Shown one piece after another: positions 20,834 through 26,979 of a stretch of DNA of 32,299 bases. The DNA is taken from the NCBI GenBank assembly GCA_003142935.1, contig PLOG01000219.1:8036-40334 (forward strand). The letters are read 5' to 3'. Every line of letters begins with the position of its first letter. Within the stretch, counting starts at the first letter, position 1. The notes beneath the pieces are model-generated. The model had not been told where the DNA came from. It made no database searches and was given only the letters and a program-made list of their open reading frames with translations. The position numbers were made by a program, and so were the translations under genes. This DNA comes from Acidobacteriaceae bacterium (GTDB lineage: Bacteria; Acidobacteriota; Terriglobia; Terriglobales; Acidobacteriaceae).

Positions 20834-21141
20834 TCACAGGTTTCGCATCAGATCCTGGATCTCCCTGACCGGCTTGACATCGATAGCCAGGATCACATCC
20901 CCAGCCAGCAACCCGGCTTTGCCCGCTTCGCTACGCTTGGCACGCGAAAAAGAATCACTCCGGTTTCGCCCGGAGTTCCAGCGGTGGATCGCTCATCCAG
21001 CCCGATGATCTTGCGCGCCCTTGCATCGGCCCAAAGAACGACCTGCCGCCTCCGGCCTTCGCTGAATGCCCCGGCTACGGCGCGATACGTTGACAGCAGT
21101 TCAGGCAGTCTGGCATTGGCCGGCAGGAGCCCGAGATTCAT
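20834..21141 (-). pseudogene. Frameshifted PDZ-domain remnant coupled to lacI-type gene
   Basis: The ATG at 21141 overlaps the LacI stop codon as ATGA. The first frame reads about 68 sensible residues (LPELLSTYRAVAGAFSEGRR, RKIIGLDERSTAGTPGE, TGVILF) and then loses sense, ending at 20893. One frame over, from about 20955 to the TGA at 20834, the minus strand encodes SEAGKAGLLAGDVILAIDVK and PVREIQDLMRNL, an unmistakable PDZ ligand-loop and helix pattern. A one-base change at the run of five T near 20947 would join them into about 102 residues. The upstream part is unrecognised and looks like the tail of a larger protein. Either a sequencing or assembly slip or genuine decay; intact function is doubtful. 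Confidence 0.6.
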
Positions 21142-22211
21142 GGATGCCCGTTCGTACCTGGCATCGCATTCAATGGCGCGGTTACCTGTTCGATCACCGC
21201 TTTCCTGTCGGTCGAAGCCCGCACCACAAGTTGAGGCTGAATGATGATTGTTTTATTTCGCGGATGAGTCTTTGATTCCAGTAACGACAAGGTCAAACGT
21301 CCAGCTCGCTCGCCGATCATGTCGGTCTGTTGGTCGATGCTCGATAGAGGAATGCGGAGTTCAGTATCATAATGGAGATTCCCAGATCCGATGACAGCGA
21401 TATCCCCCGGCACACTTAAGCCTGCATCGAGAATGGCATGAATCGCCCCAATTGCCATGGGGTCGTTATAGCAAAATACTCCATCAGGACGAGGATTCAG
21501 GGCAAGTAGGCGGTGCATCAAGTCAGCCCCGCTTTCCCTGCTTTGCACGTCCACCAACCGGGGCCTGGACACATAACTTGAAAGAGACTTCAACTTATGC
21601 TTGGCCAAGGCATTTTGATACCCCTTAAGACGCCCGACGCCTGGGCTATTGTCAGGCCCACGTAAGTGAGCAATCCTCTTGCACCCTATTTCAATGAGAT
21701 GTTCCGTGGCCAATAACCCGATCGCCTCGTCGTCGGCTCCGACATAGTTAGCGTCCAGCTCCGGGAAATTGCGGTCTATCAAAACCAATGGCAGCCCTTG
21801 CCTTTGGATACGCTCGAATACAGATGGGTTGGTGGATGAGGAGGCAATGACGAGAGCATCCAACCGGCGGCCCAAGAGTCGGTTGATCTCATTCTTTTCC
21901 AGCTCGGCATCCTCTTCCGAGGTCGAAATTGTGAGGCAGTAATCCTTCTTCAGAAGCGCCCTTGAAAGTGATTTTGCTACTTGGGCAAAGAACGGGTGCA
22001 ACAGGTCGGGGACCACAAGACCAACCAGATATGTCTTTCCGGTGACCAAGCCACGTGCAGTTAGATTCGGGGTGTAGTCAAGTTCCTTAACACGATCCAG
22101 AACTCGCTTCCGGGTCGCTTCGCCTATGTCCTCGTGGTTCCTAAGCACCTTCGAAACTGTGACCACGGACACCCCGAGGTCACGCGCGATGTCTTTCATC
22201 GTCGTGAGCAT
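21138..22211 (-). CDS. LacI-family transcriptional regulator
   Basis: 357 residues. The N-terminal helix-turn-helix is textbook LacI: MKDIARDLGVSVVTVSKVL, then GEATRKRVLDRVKELDYTPN with hinge-helix residues NLTARGL. The sugar-binding periplasmic-binding-like core follows (VGLVVPDLLHPFFAQVAKSL, RRLDALVIASS, RIAHLRGP, GVFCYNDPMAIGAI, DIAVIGSG, SSIDQQTDMIGERAGRLTL). The start at 22211 is tentative; the second Met at 22199 is the usual family start, and neither has a Shine-Dalgarno. It heads the minus-strand sugar locus and probably represses the fucosidase, transporter and dehydrogenase genes, with a fucose-derived metabolite as inducer (inferred from context). Confidence 0.92.
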   Translation of the reverse strand: MLTTMKDIARDLGVSVVTVSKVLRNHEDIGEATRKRVLDRVKELDYTPNLTARGLVTGKTYLVGLVVPDLLHPFFAQVAKSLSRALLKKDYCLTISTSEEDAELEKNEINRLLGRRLDALVIASSSTNPSVFERIQRQGLPLVLIDRNFPELDANYVGADDEAIGLLATEHLIEIGCKRIAHLRGPDNSPGVGRLKGYQNALAKHKLKSLSSYVSRPRLVDVQSRESGADLMHRLLALNPRPDGVFCYNDPMAIGAIHAILDAGLSVPGDIAVIGSGNLHYDTELRIPLSSIDQQTDMIGERAGRLTLSLLESKTHPRNKTIIIQPQLVVRASTDRKAVIEQVTAPLNAMPGTNGHP

Positions 22212-22221
22212 AAATTTTCAT

Positions 22222-22250
22222 ATTATCATAGTCACAGTAAAGTATGTGAT
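22222..22250 (-). promoter_or_regulatory. Candidate promoter of the LacI-type gene
   Basis: On the minus strand ATCACA (22250-22245) is followed after 17 bases by GATAAT (22227-22222). This would start transcription only a few bases before the ATG at 22211, giving a very short leader and matching the lack of a ribosome site. Confidence 0.35.
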
Positions 22251-22256
22251 ACCTGA

Positions 22257-22481
22257 ATCGTTAACTCAGGGCAATCGCATTTGGATTTTTCACTCACGGA
22301 TTGCTGGTCATGAAGTCGATTCGGGCGGCATAGGCGGAGCTAGCGCTGCCGAAAACCATTGCCATGAGGGCAATGTGAAGACAAAATGACACCGGAAGAT
22401 GCCAGAAACAGACGAACTCGGACTTTCTGGCCGATTCGGATGTCAAGAGAATTCCAAATGCGATTGCCCTGATCGTTAACT
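22257..22481. mobile_element. 205-bp MITE-like element with 19-bp inverted repeats and 10-bp target duplication
   Basis: CAGGGCAATCGCATTTGGA at 22267-22285 is repeated as its exact reverse complement at 22453-22471. The direct repeat ATCGTTAACT abuts both outer ends (22257-22266 and 22472-22481). The element is therefore 22267-22471, 205 bp, with perfect termini and a perfect 10-bp duplication, which is the signature of DDE transposition. It carries no transposase; a minus-strand frame inside has no convincing similarity. The 10-bp duplication fits IS4-like or related families better than IS5 or IS3. It landed 46 bp upstream of the LacI-type gene, just beyond its candidate promoter. Confidence 0.85.
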
Positions 22482-22574
22482 GCTGCCAATTTCGCCGGAT
22501 TGGTGAATGTGTAATATTTACGGGTAAGGTTCCGCTGGACAGTGCTGAGTTCGCAGTATCCATCACGCAGCGAT

Positions 22575-23631
22575 CTACTCTGAATCCAAGTGAATATCGG
22601 AGCGCCTGTATTGGTCCAGGATTTTCTTCAGTTTGGGGTCCAATAGGAAAGACGAGAAAAATCCTGGAATGGCCGCACGCAAGGCGTTTGCGGCAACCAG
22701 TTCTGATGGCGGGAGGGCAGGATTCATGGTCCGGAGCCAGCTTCTGAAGCAGAGCCAGACTTCAGCGGTGTAGTTCAGCGAAAGGTGCTGAAGCAATCCC
22801 TGAGCGATACATCCCAACTGAACATGGACGTGGAAGGCCGCGATCTTGCGGCGGATCGCGGCGCGGTAAGCGTCGCTGGTTCGATGTAGATACTGGTCAC
22901 CATCGCCGCGCTTGAGCGGCTTCATTCCGCACATCCAGAAGTGGTAGGCATAGGCGCCGAGGACGTGAACGGCTTGACGGAACCCGAGCTCGATTCTGAA
23001 CCGGTAACCGTAGAGCATGAGGATATCGAGAGGGGCAAGGGTGAGGTCGGTGGAAAGCAGGAAGATGGTTCCGCGCTGGGGATGGCGGACGATGACGAAG
23101 CGCACCAGACGTGCCGCCGGGCGCCAGATCAAATCCAGGCAACGGTAGCGCAGAGTGACGTTGTTTTCGCCATAGACAGGACTGGGGGCTGAGGTGAACG
23201 CGGCATCGTCCTGAGCGAGTTCCTTGAGGCGGACCTTTTCCCCATAGATTCTTGGCCTGCCCCGTCGACGATGCTCGGGCATGGGCACAGGCAGGTAAGC
23301 GACGGCGTTGCTCTTGGCGCGAGTTACAAGGTGATGTCCGTTGGCGAGTAACTGATGGATGAACTTGCCGCTGGCATAATAGGCGTCTGCCACTAGCAGA
23401 ACACTGCGCGCCAAGACGTTGGCGATGGAAAACAGCAGTACCGCCAGCTTGTCGAGCAGGGTTCTGGAATCGCGGTTGGAGAAGACCAGCCCTTCGTGAA
23501 TCCGCGAGGTCAGTGGTACGGCGGCCACATGTCCGGAAGGGCCTTGGACCAGCAGAGAAATGGCCTGAAACGAATGGCCCATGATGTATTCCGGTTTGGA
23601 ATTGCTGGCCGATTGCTGGTGCAAGTTCTTA
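22575..23631 (-). pseudogene. IS4-like DDE transposase, C-terminal part (split by an IS5 insertion)
   Basis: About 350 residues that complete the N-terminal fragment at 24524-24846. Visible DDE-fold motifs are VLLVADAYYASG (second catalytic Asp) and YGYRFRIELGFRQAV, the Y-x2-R-x3-E signature with the catalytic Glu. Basic HRRRGRPRIYGEKV lies between them. The sequence resumes exactly at the IS5 target TTA: fusing the two halves after removing 892 bp plus one TTA restores the reading frame (AVKNLHQQSASN), giving about 458 codons. Without excision the C-terminal part has only an internal TTG start and lacks the first catalytic Asp, so it is inactive. I could not find the inverted repeats of this older element. 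Confidence 0.8.
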
Positions 23632-23639
23632 GAGCCTGT

Positions 23640-24122
23640 TTACGATCTCCTGAGCAGTAATCTGAGGAAGGCCAAGTGGATCATCTGCAAGCTGGTATTC
23701 AGTTTTCGTTCGCAGTTCTTCCATAGCCGGCGGCACTTTTCCAGCCACGCGAAGGACCGTTCTACAATCCAGCGTTTCGGCAGCACGACAAACGTATGCA
23801 GTTCATTGCGCTTGACGACTTGAACCGTGGCCTTCAGCTGCTCCATAACGCTGTCTGCGAACGGTTGGCCCGTGTAACCGCCGTCAACCAGCACGCTCTC
23901 CACCAACTCCAGATTCGACTTGCACCGCTCGATAGCCTGCACAGCGCAGTTGCGGTCCGTCACCTCGGCCGTGGTTACGGCGACAGCATGTGGCATTCCC
24001 TGCGTGTCCACCGCGATATGCCGCTTGATGCCGGAGATCTTTTTGCCCGCGTCGTAGCCCTTCTGCTCGGCGCTGTCGGTGTTCTTCACGCTTTGCGCAT
24101 CAACGATCAAAAAGCTGGTCAT
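23640..24122 (-). CDS. IS5-family transposase, second frame (OrfB)
   Basis: 160 residues from the internal ATG at 24122; the frame is open upstream as far as the run of eight A near 24172, so the natural product is probably a fusion with OrfA. It carries the DDE catalytic core: FLIVDAQSVKNT (first Asp), SVLVDGGYTGQ (second Asp) and RWIVERSFAWLEKCRR with the Glu and following basic residue. GYDAGKKISGIKRHIAVDT is the typical IS5 strand region. The stop codon lies inside the terminal inverted repeat. Confidence 0.9.
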   Translation of the reverse strand: MTSFLIVDAQSVKNTDSAEQKGYDAGKKISGIKRHIAVDTQGMPHAVAVTTAEVTDRNCAVQAIERCKSNLELVESVLVDGGYTGQPFADSVMEQLKATVQVVKRNELHTFVVLPKRWIVERSFAWLEKCRRLWKNCERKLNTSLQMIHLAFLRLLLRRS

Positions 24123-24435
24123 GGCGTTGCGCCCCAGTTTCTCGCGGGCCTCGCCAACGGATTTTTTTTAAGGCTCGCTCCAGAGCGCTCGTTCCGTCCT
24201 GATCGGTTGCGCTCCACTTGGCAAAATACGAGTACACCGTGACCCAGTTGGGAAACCTGTCCGGGAGCATACGCCACTGGCAACCGCTCTTGAGCAGGTA
24301 GAGCACTGCGTTGAAGACCTCATGCAAATCCACCGTGCGCGGCTTGGTGCGCTTGCGCACGCCTTCCAGCAAGGGACGGATCAACTCAAACTGCTCCCGG
24401 CTGATATCGCTTGGATACGGCTTTCTTGGCTCCAT
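24100..24435 (-). CDS. IS5-family transposase, first frame (OrfA)
   Basis: 111 residues containing the N-terminal DUF4096-like domain of IS5 transposases: PYPSDISREQFELIRPLLEG, VFNAVLYLLKSGCQWRMLP and FPNWVTVYSYFAKW. After ALKK the frame passes the A8 tract (minus strand, about 24165-24172) and ends in 19 residues with no family likeness. Loss of one A in the message would place the ribosome in the OrfB frame (ALKKSVGEAREKLGRNAMTS). Overlap with OrfB is 23 bases from the OrfB ATG. Confidence 0.88.
   Translation of the reverse strand: MEPRKPYPSDISREQFELIRPLLEGVRKRTKPRTVDLHEVFNAVLYLLKSGCQWRMLPDRFPNWVTVYSYFAKWSATDQDGTSALERALKKIRWRGPRETGAQRHDQLFDR
24165..24172 (-). promoter_or_regulatory. Slippage site (A8) between the IS5 transposase frames
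   Basis: Eight A in the message, preceded by CCTT. One A fewer in the transcript, or a +1 shift, fuses OrfA to OrfB; the -1 frame reaches a TGA about 40 bases on. Position and type match the programmed slippage or frameshifting known in IS5/IS427 elements. Confidence 0.55.
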
Positions 24436-24523
24436 TTCTCAGATTTACCGTACTGAGGGAGAAGCTGCATATATCTACCGTGATGACCACGGCAGATCAG
24501 GACCAAAGATCGTAAACAGGCTC

Positions 24524-24846
24524 TTAACGGCGGGCATCAGCTTGCCCTCCTTGGGCGCCTTGATGCCGTCGGCCAGGCAGACCACGCGGGAGCCGGCACA
24601 AACGGGCTTGAACAGCGTCAGGCACAATTTCACCCAGCAGGCGGTGAGCTTGTCCAAATCAAGTCCCTTGCTGTGAAACAGATGCAGGAAGCGGTGGTAA
24701 GCCTCGGGACGCAAGCCGAGAACACGGACATAGCTGCTAACCCCGGCCAGATCCAGGCGGCAACAGAGGCCAATCAGGGGCAGGACCAACCACAGGAAGG
24801 TGCGTGATCTGTGGCAAGCAGGCCGCAGTGATCGAACAGCGTTCAT
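24524..24846 (-). pseudogene. IS4-like DDE transposase, N-terminal part (split by an IS5 insertion)
   Basis: From an ATG at 24846, about 107 residues: RSRTFLWLVLPLIGLCCRLD, VSSYVRVLGLRPEAYHRFLH, LDLDKLTACWVKLCLTLF and VVCLADGIKAPKEGKLMPAV, the last carrying the first catalytic Asp (ADG). The frame is cut by the IS5 element after PAVK and then reads 16 foreign residues. It belongs with the C-terminal part at 22575-23631. The start codon is only 28 bases from the large palindrome at 24875-24924. Confidence 0.8.
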
Positions 24847-24874
24847 CTAGGGAACCCAAAGAGTCATGTAGGCA

Positions 24875-24924
24875 ACCTCGATTGTGTCTGACAGCACTAT
24901 AGTGCTATCAGACACAATCGAGGT
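24875..24924. repeat. 50-bp near-perfect palindrome between divergent mobile-element genes
   Basis: Two 25-base arms meet at 24899/24900 with no loop. The right arm runs TAGTGCTATCAGACACAATC then GAGGT, and 24 of 25 positions pair. The only mismatch is C/A, which becomes a G-U wobble in minus-strand RNA. It lies 28 bases from the ATG of the IS4-like transposase (minus) and 13 bases from the ATG of the small protein at 24938 (plus). A TATACT -10-like hexamer (24924-24929) abuts the right arm. It could be a shared operator, an anti-readthrough hairpin, or two fused element ends. Confidence 0.9.
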
Positions 24925-24937
24925 ATACTTTTCTCCG

Positions 24938-25282
24938 ATGAATACCAAAAGGGAATCTGAAATCGAACGTCAAATCGAGAAGCTGAAGCGGGACCTTGCT
25001 GGACTCGGGCAACTGCGGCCAGGTAGCCTTTCCAAGCAGTACACGGTATGCGGCCATCCAGGATGTCGCTGTACAGCAACACCGCCGCAAAAGCACGGCC
25101 CCTATTACCAACTAAGCTTTACCCGAAAGGGCAGGAGCAGTTCCAAGTTCGTCCGCAAGGAAGACCTGCCGGCAATCCGCAAGCAGTTGAAGAACTACGA
25201 GCGTATGAAGTTGCTGGTTAACCAATGGATCGATCTGGCCACCGAACTATCAAACCTCCAGATCAAGCAAAATCGAGACTGA
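24938..25282 (+). CDS. Small coiled-coil/Cys-motif protein, transposon-associated type (DUF6788-like)
   Basis: 114 residues from the ATG at 24938; an in-frame GTG at 24884 would start inside the palindrome and is rejected. Residues 1-25 are a charged predicted coiled coil (ESEIERQIEKLKRDLAGL). Then come PGSLSKQYTVCGHPGCRC, whose three cysteines and a His could bind zinc, KHGPYYQLSFTRKGRSSSKF, and a C-terminal amphipathic helix (IRKQLKNYERMKLLVNQWID). From memory this matches small proteins now called DUF6788 that occur beside transposases; unchecked. It is divergent from the IS4-like transposase and may be an accessory or regulator of that element. No strong Shine-Dalgarno is seen. Function unknown. 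Confidence 0.72.
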   Translation: MNTKRESEIERQIEKLKRDLAGLGQLRPGSLSKQYTVCGHPGCRCTATPPQKHGPYYQLSFTRKGRSSSKFVRKEDLPAIRKQLKNYERMKLLVNQWIDLATELSNLQIKQNRD

Positions 25283-26979
25283 ACGGGCCGGAGAACTTGG
25301 CACTCTCCAGGTTCCGGTCTGCTGTATTTAAATCGCGTCAAGGCCAGTGCGTTTCAAAGCAAATTCACCCTGTTCCAGCCCCCTTTCTTGCACGCGGAGG
25401 CCAAGACCAGTTCAGAGGCGATCCGAGCAGCCGCCACCTCTATATGGTCGATGAATCCAGCCTGGCCAGCACCCGCCAGATGCAAGCATTTATGGAGAAG
25501 ATTGGGCCGCTAGATCGGGTACTCCTTATCGGCGACACGCGCCAGCATCAGAGCGTTGATGCTGGCAAACCCTTCGAGCAGATGCAGCAGGCCGGGATGC
25601 AAACTTCACAACTTGACCAGATCATGCGCCAGAAAGACCCGGAACTGCTTCGCGCGGTCGAACACCTGTCGAAGAACGAGACCGTAATCGGCCTCACGCT
25701 CTTGCAACAGCAGGGCCGCGTCACTGAGATACTCGACAATGTCCAGCGCATCGAGGCCATTGCGAAGGACTATGTCGCCAAGCCTGAGAACACGCTGGTC
25801 GTCTCGCCCGACAACGCCAGCCGCCAGGAAATCAACAATGCGATCCGCACTGAATTGCAGGCATCCGGCGTCGTCTCCAAAGAGAGTCACAGCATGAACG
25901 TGCTCACGCCGCGATCTGATATGACCAGCGTTGATCGAAGCTGGGCAGCGCGATACCAGCCAGACGACGTTCTCCATTACACGCGGGGCAGCAAGGAACA
26001 CAGTATTGAAAAGGGCAGCTATGCAACCGTCATCTCCGCCAATCACAAAAAGAACCAGATCACCGTCCAGAAGCCAGACGGCCAGCAGGCCACCTATGAC
26101 CCAAAGCGATTGCAAGGCATTGCGGCTTACCGCGAGATTGACCGCGATTTTGCTCAGGGAGACCGCATCCAGTTCACTGCCAACAACCGCGAGCTTGCCG
26201 TTTCAAACCGCGACATGGGAACCATCGAACGCATAGACGCCAATCAGATCAGATTACAAATGGACGGCGCAAAAGAGCGCACCGTCGCGTTCGACGCCGC
26301 GCAAATGCGGCATTTCGATCATGGCTACGCCGTGACCTTGCACAGTTCCCAGGGGCTTACAGCAGACCGGGTATTGGTGAATATGGACACGAAGGTCCAC
26401 CCGGAACTCATCAATACGCGCTTCGCCTACGTCTCCGTATCCCGCGCTTCCGAGGACGTGAGAATTTACACCAACGACGCCGCTGTCCTGAGTGAGCGCC
26501 TCAGTACCGACGTAACAAAGACCTCAGCCGTAGACCTTCACAAAGCCCAGATCGAACCGACCCGCAACCCGCAAACCCAGACAAAGGAGCCACCGATGAC
26601 CAACAGCAGAGAGCACTCCCAAGAGGAACTTCGCCGCCAGATACTTGCCGAGACGATTATTCACGCTCCCGAAAACATCAGCACTACCACCGACATCGAG
26701 CATCGGCACAATGCTCCGATCCAAACAGCCCTGCCAAACGAAGCGTCAGATTACGAGTGGAAGCGCGAGACCGGCGAGGTTCAGAGCTACCAGCACACCA
26801 ACGCGGGAAGCTGGCTGCACATCGACCCTCAAGGCCAGTTCTACGACCGCCAGGCGCAGCCGATTACGCGAGAGACCGCCCTTGAGCAAGCAGGCCAATC
26901 CTCGGCTCATTCATTGGGCGACAATGCGCAAGTGCAGCCCCACAGTAAAGACACTACCGACCTCGGCCTGAGTCTGTGA
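25225..26979 (+). pseudogene. MobF-type conjugative relaxase/helicase (TraI/TrwC), 5'-truncated
   Basis: The open frame has 584 residues, but similarity starts only near residue 54 (25384, FLARGGQDQFRGDP); the first 53 residues are junction sequence overlapping the previous gene. Superfamily 1 helicase motifs follow: LYMVDESSLAS (Walker B, about 72-82), GDTRQHQSVDAGKPF (motif III, about 103-117), YAVTLHSSQG (motif V region, 367-376) and YVSVSRASEDVRIYT (motif VI, 402-416). The relaxase domain with its catalytic Tyr and three-His metal site, and the Walker A motif, are missing, so neither nicking nor ATP-driven unwinding is possible. The C terminus from about 453 is a low-similarity polar tail that seems complete. 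It marks a degraded conjugative plasmid or ICE. Confidence 0.82.

Follow-up and report, generated by a model that had tools for sequence, protein, structure and literature searches.

The window analysed here is a 32,299-nt stretch on contig C219 of the genome assembly of a soil bacterium of the Acidobacteriaceae (assembly G000, 5.2 Mb in 219 contigs, 97% complete and 4% contaminated). On its minus strand, at 21138-22211, lies a gene for a LacI-family regulator of 357 amino acids, identified with PF00356 and PF13377. The start codon of this gene is separated by 55 bp (22212-22266, read on the same strand) from a 205-bp element at 22267-22471, of which the regulator gene is not a part. On the far side of the element, two pieces of an IS701-like transposase gene follow (22575-23624 and 24475-24846). 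Both score below the model cut-off, and they are separated by an IS5-family element whose 18-bp ends (23631-23648 and 24507-24524) are perfect. Beside this IS701 remnant stands a 50-bp palindrome (24875-24924) with 25-bp arms that are 96% complementary and have no spacer.

Direct reading and a repeat search of the window agree on the anatomy of the 205-bp element. The left terminal inverted repeat, CAGGGCAATCGCATTTGGA (19 bp, 22267-22285, plus strand), is matched at 19/19 positions by its exact complement on the right (22453-22471, minus strand). Immediately outside the two ends the 10-bp direct repeat ATCGTTAACT is perfect at 10/10 positions, with its left copy at 22257-22266, inside the 55 bp mentioned above, and its right copy at 22472-22481. 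The inverted match of the ends reaches 26 nt at 92% identity and includes one base of the duplication. A previous sequence-only reading of this locus had described the ends, the duplication, the location upstream of a LacI-type gene and the absence of a transposase, and on each of these points it was accurate. The core of 167 bp (22286-22452) is devoid of coding signal. No open frame of at least 100 aa is found inside the element, where the longest open stretch spans 58 codons. The same frame stays open for 68 codons in the most closely related copy, which is described below, but a coding core was rejected because the two 205-bp copies differ at 60 core positions, which are spread over the first, second and third codon positions as 19, 25 and 16 and thus show no codon-position bias.

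The insertion can be polarised. Two other versions of the lacI upstream region, 94% identical in the sister genome G436 and 89% identical on contig C27 of the same assembly, contain the 55-bp interval but not the element, and in both of them the two flanks adjoin directly, with the target present once (ATCGTTGACT in G436, ATCGTTAACT on C27). Consequently, the window gained 215 bp, and the empty-site allele that the sequence-only reading had proposed as a check does exist. Since the assembly is 4% contaminated, the C27 copy may represent a paralogue or a contig of foreign origin, a question on which the empty site of G436 does not depend. Together with C27 (L310, ~89% identical), contig C121 (L312, ~72%) shows that the assembly contains further versions of the lacI-type locus, which are paralogues or contamination. 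A promoter-like site matching 9 of 12 consensus positions is located at 22250-22222, between the insertion and the lacI-type gene, and two such sites were found in that region against 0.6 expected, counting consensus matches only. An influence of the element on the lacI-type gene, raised by the sequence-only reading, is hypothetical.

Copies of the 19-bp end are frequent in the host genome, as the sequence-only reading had anticipated. At three or fewer mismatches there are 51 matches (27+24), compared with 0+0 in the reversed control, and the occurrence of the end is thus not a matter of chance. Most of these matches (34/51) form 17 short paired elements of 88-400 bp. One core group comprises elements of 245-246 bp that are pairwise 93-100% alike, and in the forms of 398 and 400 bp (L048 and L053) the 246-bp element is interrupted at a single point by ~150 bp of additional sequence, resembling the insertion of a second element into the first. 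Another group, of 277-343 bp and with an 88-bp short form, is characterized by GGGCTTCAGCCC palindromes; such palindromes, or GGGGCTTTAGCCCC-like ones, were seen in L038, L039, L040, L058, L060 and L063, and close to one end of L040 there is in addition a short tandem repeat of ~22 bp. The core in the window is unlike the other host cores and is present as a single copy. At least three different cores therefore share one end within a single assembly. Of the 17 unpaired ends, 16 were compared (C185:13871 was left out), and 11 of them continue into the same core groups whereas five do not. Given the 4% contamination of the assembly, the window copy and the elements on its other contigs may, but need not, reside in one cell.

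The flanks of these short elements show a recurring duplication length. Ten-bp duplications are exact in 6/17 host pairs, within one mismatch in 8/17 and within two mismatches in 10/17, whereas left and right flanks taken from different host elements gave a 10-bp repeat at two or fewer mismatches in 0/272 combinations. The other seven pairs have no 10-bp duplication at that threshold, although two of them (L040 and L050) come within one mismatch when a displacement of 1 nt is allowed at one of the junctions. In fetched regions of related genomes, 20 short pairs showed exact duplications in six cases, in 11 with at most one mismatch and in 12 with at most two, against 5/380 in a mixed-flank control that included near-duplicate flanks. 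As to a target motif, the duplication sequences of the short elements appeared varied by eye.

Which transposase these ends belong to can be read from larger elements. Members of the ISAs1 family have CAGGG-type ends and duplications of about 8-10 bp. Elements of 1215-1228 bp carry 17-18 of the 19 letters of CAGGGCAATCGCATTTGAA as their ends, and several of them exceed the 70-bit cut-off of the ISAs1 transposase model NF033564. One of them, from a member of the Pseudomonadales (L179), is 1228 bp long, has a 10/10 duplication and an intact frame of 370 aa, and scores 350 bits. In G020, the copy on C119 (1218 bp, duplication 9/10, 389 bits) has a frame broken by one TGA, and that on C101, likewise above the cut-off, has a broken frame and no duplication. 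A related element in G025 differs by two mismatches per end and scores 383 bits, and a 1219-bp element on G405:C99 has a 10/10 duplication, a longest open frame of 281 aa and an ISAs1-like appearance by eye. The window element and the ISAs1 family are thus alike in 17-19 of 19 end letters and in a 10-bp duplication (9-10/10). They differ in that the ISAs1 elements are ~1.2 kb long, with a transposase gene and different cores, whereas the window element has 205 bp and the family's type of end and duplication but not its transposase. It consequently does not count as an IS, although it carries ends of the ISAs1 type.

The distribution of end and transposase points in the same direction. In a sample of 60 genomes, consisting of the host and its relatives, the end at one mismatch or less was found in ten and an ISAs1 protein match in ten, with seven genomes common to both (Fisher p = 3e-5, uncorrected for kinship). 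The overlap persists when the sample is restricted to the genus, with 36 genomes (p = 4e-4, likewise uncorrected), and when only matches above the NF033564 cut-off are considered, which occur in 8/60 genomes, six of them also carrying the end (p = 1e-4, again with kinship uncorrected). The ISAs1 protein matches of G016 and G036 are weak, and in G019 and G031 the end is present with no transposase detected. Moreover, the ISAs1 copies of G022, G032 and G030 have other ends, with 4-5 mismatches, and the co-occurrence is for that reason not specific to a branch of the family.

The host assembly itself, at 97% completeness and in 219 contigs, yielded no intact ISAs1 transposase by PF13808, by a 189-aa ISAs1 protein or by NF033564. 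The larger transposase-bearing copy that the sequence-only reading had named as a check was accordingly found in relatives, where it named the ISAs1 family, but not in the host. The 189-aa query gave zero matches. PF13808 gave one sub-threshold match, to a 458-aa frame on C54, which was rejected as the parent transposase since it appears to belong to another IS family, perhaps an IS1380-like one. NF033564 gave a single 34-bit fragment on C108 that belongs to another ISAs1 branch. It lies in a 253-bp remnant (L321:1217-1469) with CAGGGCCGACGC-like ends, in which one transposase fragment is clear (E 8e-7) and another is doubtful (E 0.42), and was rejected as the parent as well. The helper is missing from the host, lost or unassembled.

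The closest kin of the window element was found in G022, Terracidiphilus sp. MAG_BO34 (JARLGF010000057.1), which has an element with the same 19-bp ends, the same length of 205 bp and the same core orientation. Without gaps, 107/167 core positions are identical (64%, or 36% divergence), and the gapped alignment score of 54 is far outside the distribution of 2000 shuffles (mean -25, sd 5, maximum -2.5). In contrast to the single core of the window, this element is repeated. It was matched at 99-100% on at least 13 contigs (13 of 30 candidates scored), once in full and 12 times cut by contig ends, although contigs cannot be equated with insertions here, since at least two pairs of them are halves of one insertion. 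Across the broken contigs, flanks of the short element match at 10/10 bp between C46 and C159 and between C47 and C158. The two ends of the ISAs1 element of G022 lie on C101 and C152 and on C54, C55 and C77, with a 10/10 match between the flanks on C152 and C55. Helper ends and small element are hence both repeated in one genome. A survey of 399 genomes evenly drawn from the class, in which at most two candidates were scored, found no further full-length copy of the window core among the matches listed, where the host's own was the only one and the other five positive genomes gave matches of 22-34 bp. As the window core is single in its host, amplification of that core is visible in G022 only.

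Taken together, the exact anatomy, the multicopy ends, the ISAs1 partners, the empty sites and the kin in G022 lead us to conclude that the window element is almost certainly a non-autonomous ISAs1-type MITE mobilised in trans. It corresponds to a type I MITE in being short and without a transposase, in having the ends of an autonomous element and a fixed duplication, and in occurring in multiple copies and with an empty site. According to this model, an ISAs1-family DDE transposase produced elsewhere would bind both 19-bp ends and move or copy the 205-bp segment. Joining to a new site would proceed through 10-bp staggered cuts, host repair of which would generate the 10-bp direct repeat. The insertion in question lies in the intergenic region 55 bp upstream of the lacI-type gene. 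Mobilisation in trans, which the sequence-only reading had considered necessary, is consistent with the ISAs1-bearing elements with nearly the same ends in relatives; the action of such an enzyme on the window copy is what we infer from them, and the helper would formerly have been present in this cell line. The same reading had called the movement recent. Perfect ends and a perfect duplication favor this view, but the limits are wide: assuming that the ends were identical at insertion, the 29 identical pairs (19 of the end and 10 of the duplication) bound divergence at ~5% (95%), the 10 duplication pairs alone bound it at ~14%, and the core of the closest relative is 36% divergent. Recent movement is therefore a fair description, loosely bounded.

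Two explanations that would do without ISAs1 appear highly improbable. The IS701/IS4-like transposase gene at 22575-24846 adjoins the element and could be thought to own or move it, and it does resemble IS701 transposases (129 bits, under the model cut-off of 170). Around that gene, however, the only CAGGGCAATCGCATTT ends at up to five mismatches are the element's own two (L069), and in several genomes the same end bounds ISAs1 elements. In G436 both the element and the stretch ~22511-25314 are absent from the site, and the 10-bp duplication flanks nothing but the element, which makes the element and the IS701-like stretch separate insertions. It is equally hard to believe that the 205 bp are a fixed, immobile regulatory inverted repeat of the lacI-type gene, such as a cruciform or an attenuator. 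The location upstream of a regulator gene would suit such a role, and the strand of the element folds far better than shuffled sequences (z -8.8), although mostly owing to its ends; the core alone folds better than 200/200 shuffles on the plus strand (z -3.6) and gives z -2.6 on the minus strand. Against a fixed function, the two versions of the lacI promoter region that most resemble that of the window both lack the element, and the same ends occur at many other loci with 10-bp duplications.

A third possibility concerns the origin of the element within the ISAs1-type MITE reading, namely that it arose from an ISAs1 element by simple internal deletion. Deletion derivatives seem to exist in this family, as suggested by the 253-bp remnant on C108 of the host assembly. 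We nevertheless consider this origin unlikely, as the core has no visible similarity to a transposase, the letters held in common with ISAs1 ends stop near position 19-22, and several different cores have the same ends.

As an ISAs1-type MITE, the window element is a clean but ordinary case. A search of the literature on MITEs of Acidobacteria, ISAs1 MITEs and duplications, Terracidiphilus IS elements and the letters of the end returned no description of these elements. ISfinder, most subscription papers and supplements were outside its scope, so that a registered ISAs1 element or MITE with the same end may exist. Within the parts of the articles that were available, they are not described in PMC3281130, PMC5756416, PMC11578231, PMC3542288, PMC8841776, PMC5771137 or PMC5900883. 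The type I element MITEPye1 of Paracoccus yeei is, from the available part of its report, comparable in being short, with IS-family ends, direct repeats and no transposase, but differs in its IS family, IS1182, whose elements presumably mobilise it (PMC11578231). The present data thus add a MITE with documented ends, duplication, empty sites and partner family to a group without described MITEs in the literature searched.

The end itself is not restricted to Acidobacteria. Exact CAGGGCAATCGCATTTGRA occurs in at least 116 stretches of GTDB genomes, 80 of them listed, whereas we estimate that ~4 would be expected by chance in 257 billion bases. Among the matches listed are Magnetococcales, Nitrospirae, Angelobacter, Bradyrhizobium, Chloroflexi and Porphyromonas levii. 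These listed loci include 24 short pairs (one end being counted twice, and some genomes being already among the relatives above), with exact duplications in 12, at most one mismatch in 14 and at most two in 15, against 3/552 in the control. By record title, the 12 pairs with exact duplications come from Acidobacteria, Proteobacteria, Nitrospirae and Chloroflexi. The P. levii ends are those of an ISAs1 element: of the 17 listed, 10 run into the C-terminus of a transposase, and flanks match at 10/10 bp in four contig pairs (L339/L346, L342/L336, L327/L331 and L333/L345).

It can be speculated that CAGGGCAATCGCATTTGRA has been preserved almost unchanged in at least five phyla (by record title Acidobacteria, Proteobacteria, Nitrospirae, Chloroflexi and, through Porphyromonas, Bacteroidota) as a common handle. 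Lineage-specific cores could have acquired this handle, could be moved by any ISAs1 element that arrives and could outlive their helper, and some of them might by now serve as regulatory DNA. We put this forward as a tentative idea, more likely to fail than to hold. Finding the same end in distant phyla makes the interchangeability of ISAs1 transposases testable. One candidate for a regulatory descendant is the 77-bp inverted repeat upstream of the K-antigen capsule operon of P. gingivalis, the arms of which, in the available part of the report, start at their outermost positions with 19/19 and 18/19 letters of CAGGGCAATCGCATTTGAA (PMC3969353). This repeat differs from the window element in its long arms, which are alike at 69/77 positions, and the same part of that report does not term it mobile. 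The MITEs tabulated for P. gingivalis in the portion available of PMC4596501 carry other ends. If the link to the capsule repeat is true, a known regulatory repeat gains an origin. Among 12 genomes of the genus of P. levii, two have the end at one mismatch or less.
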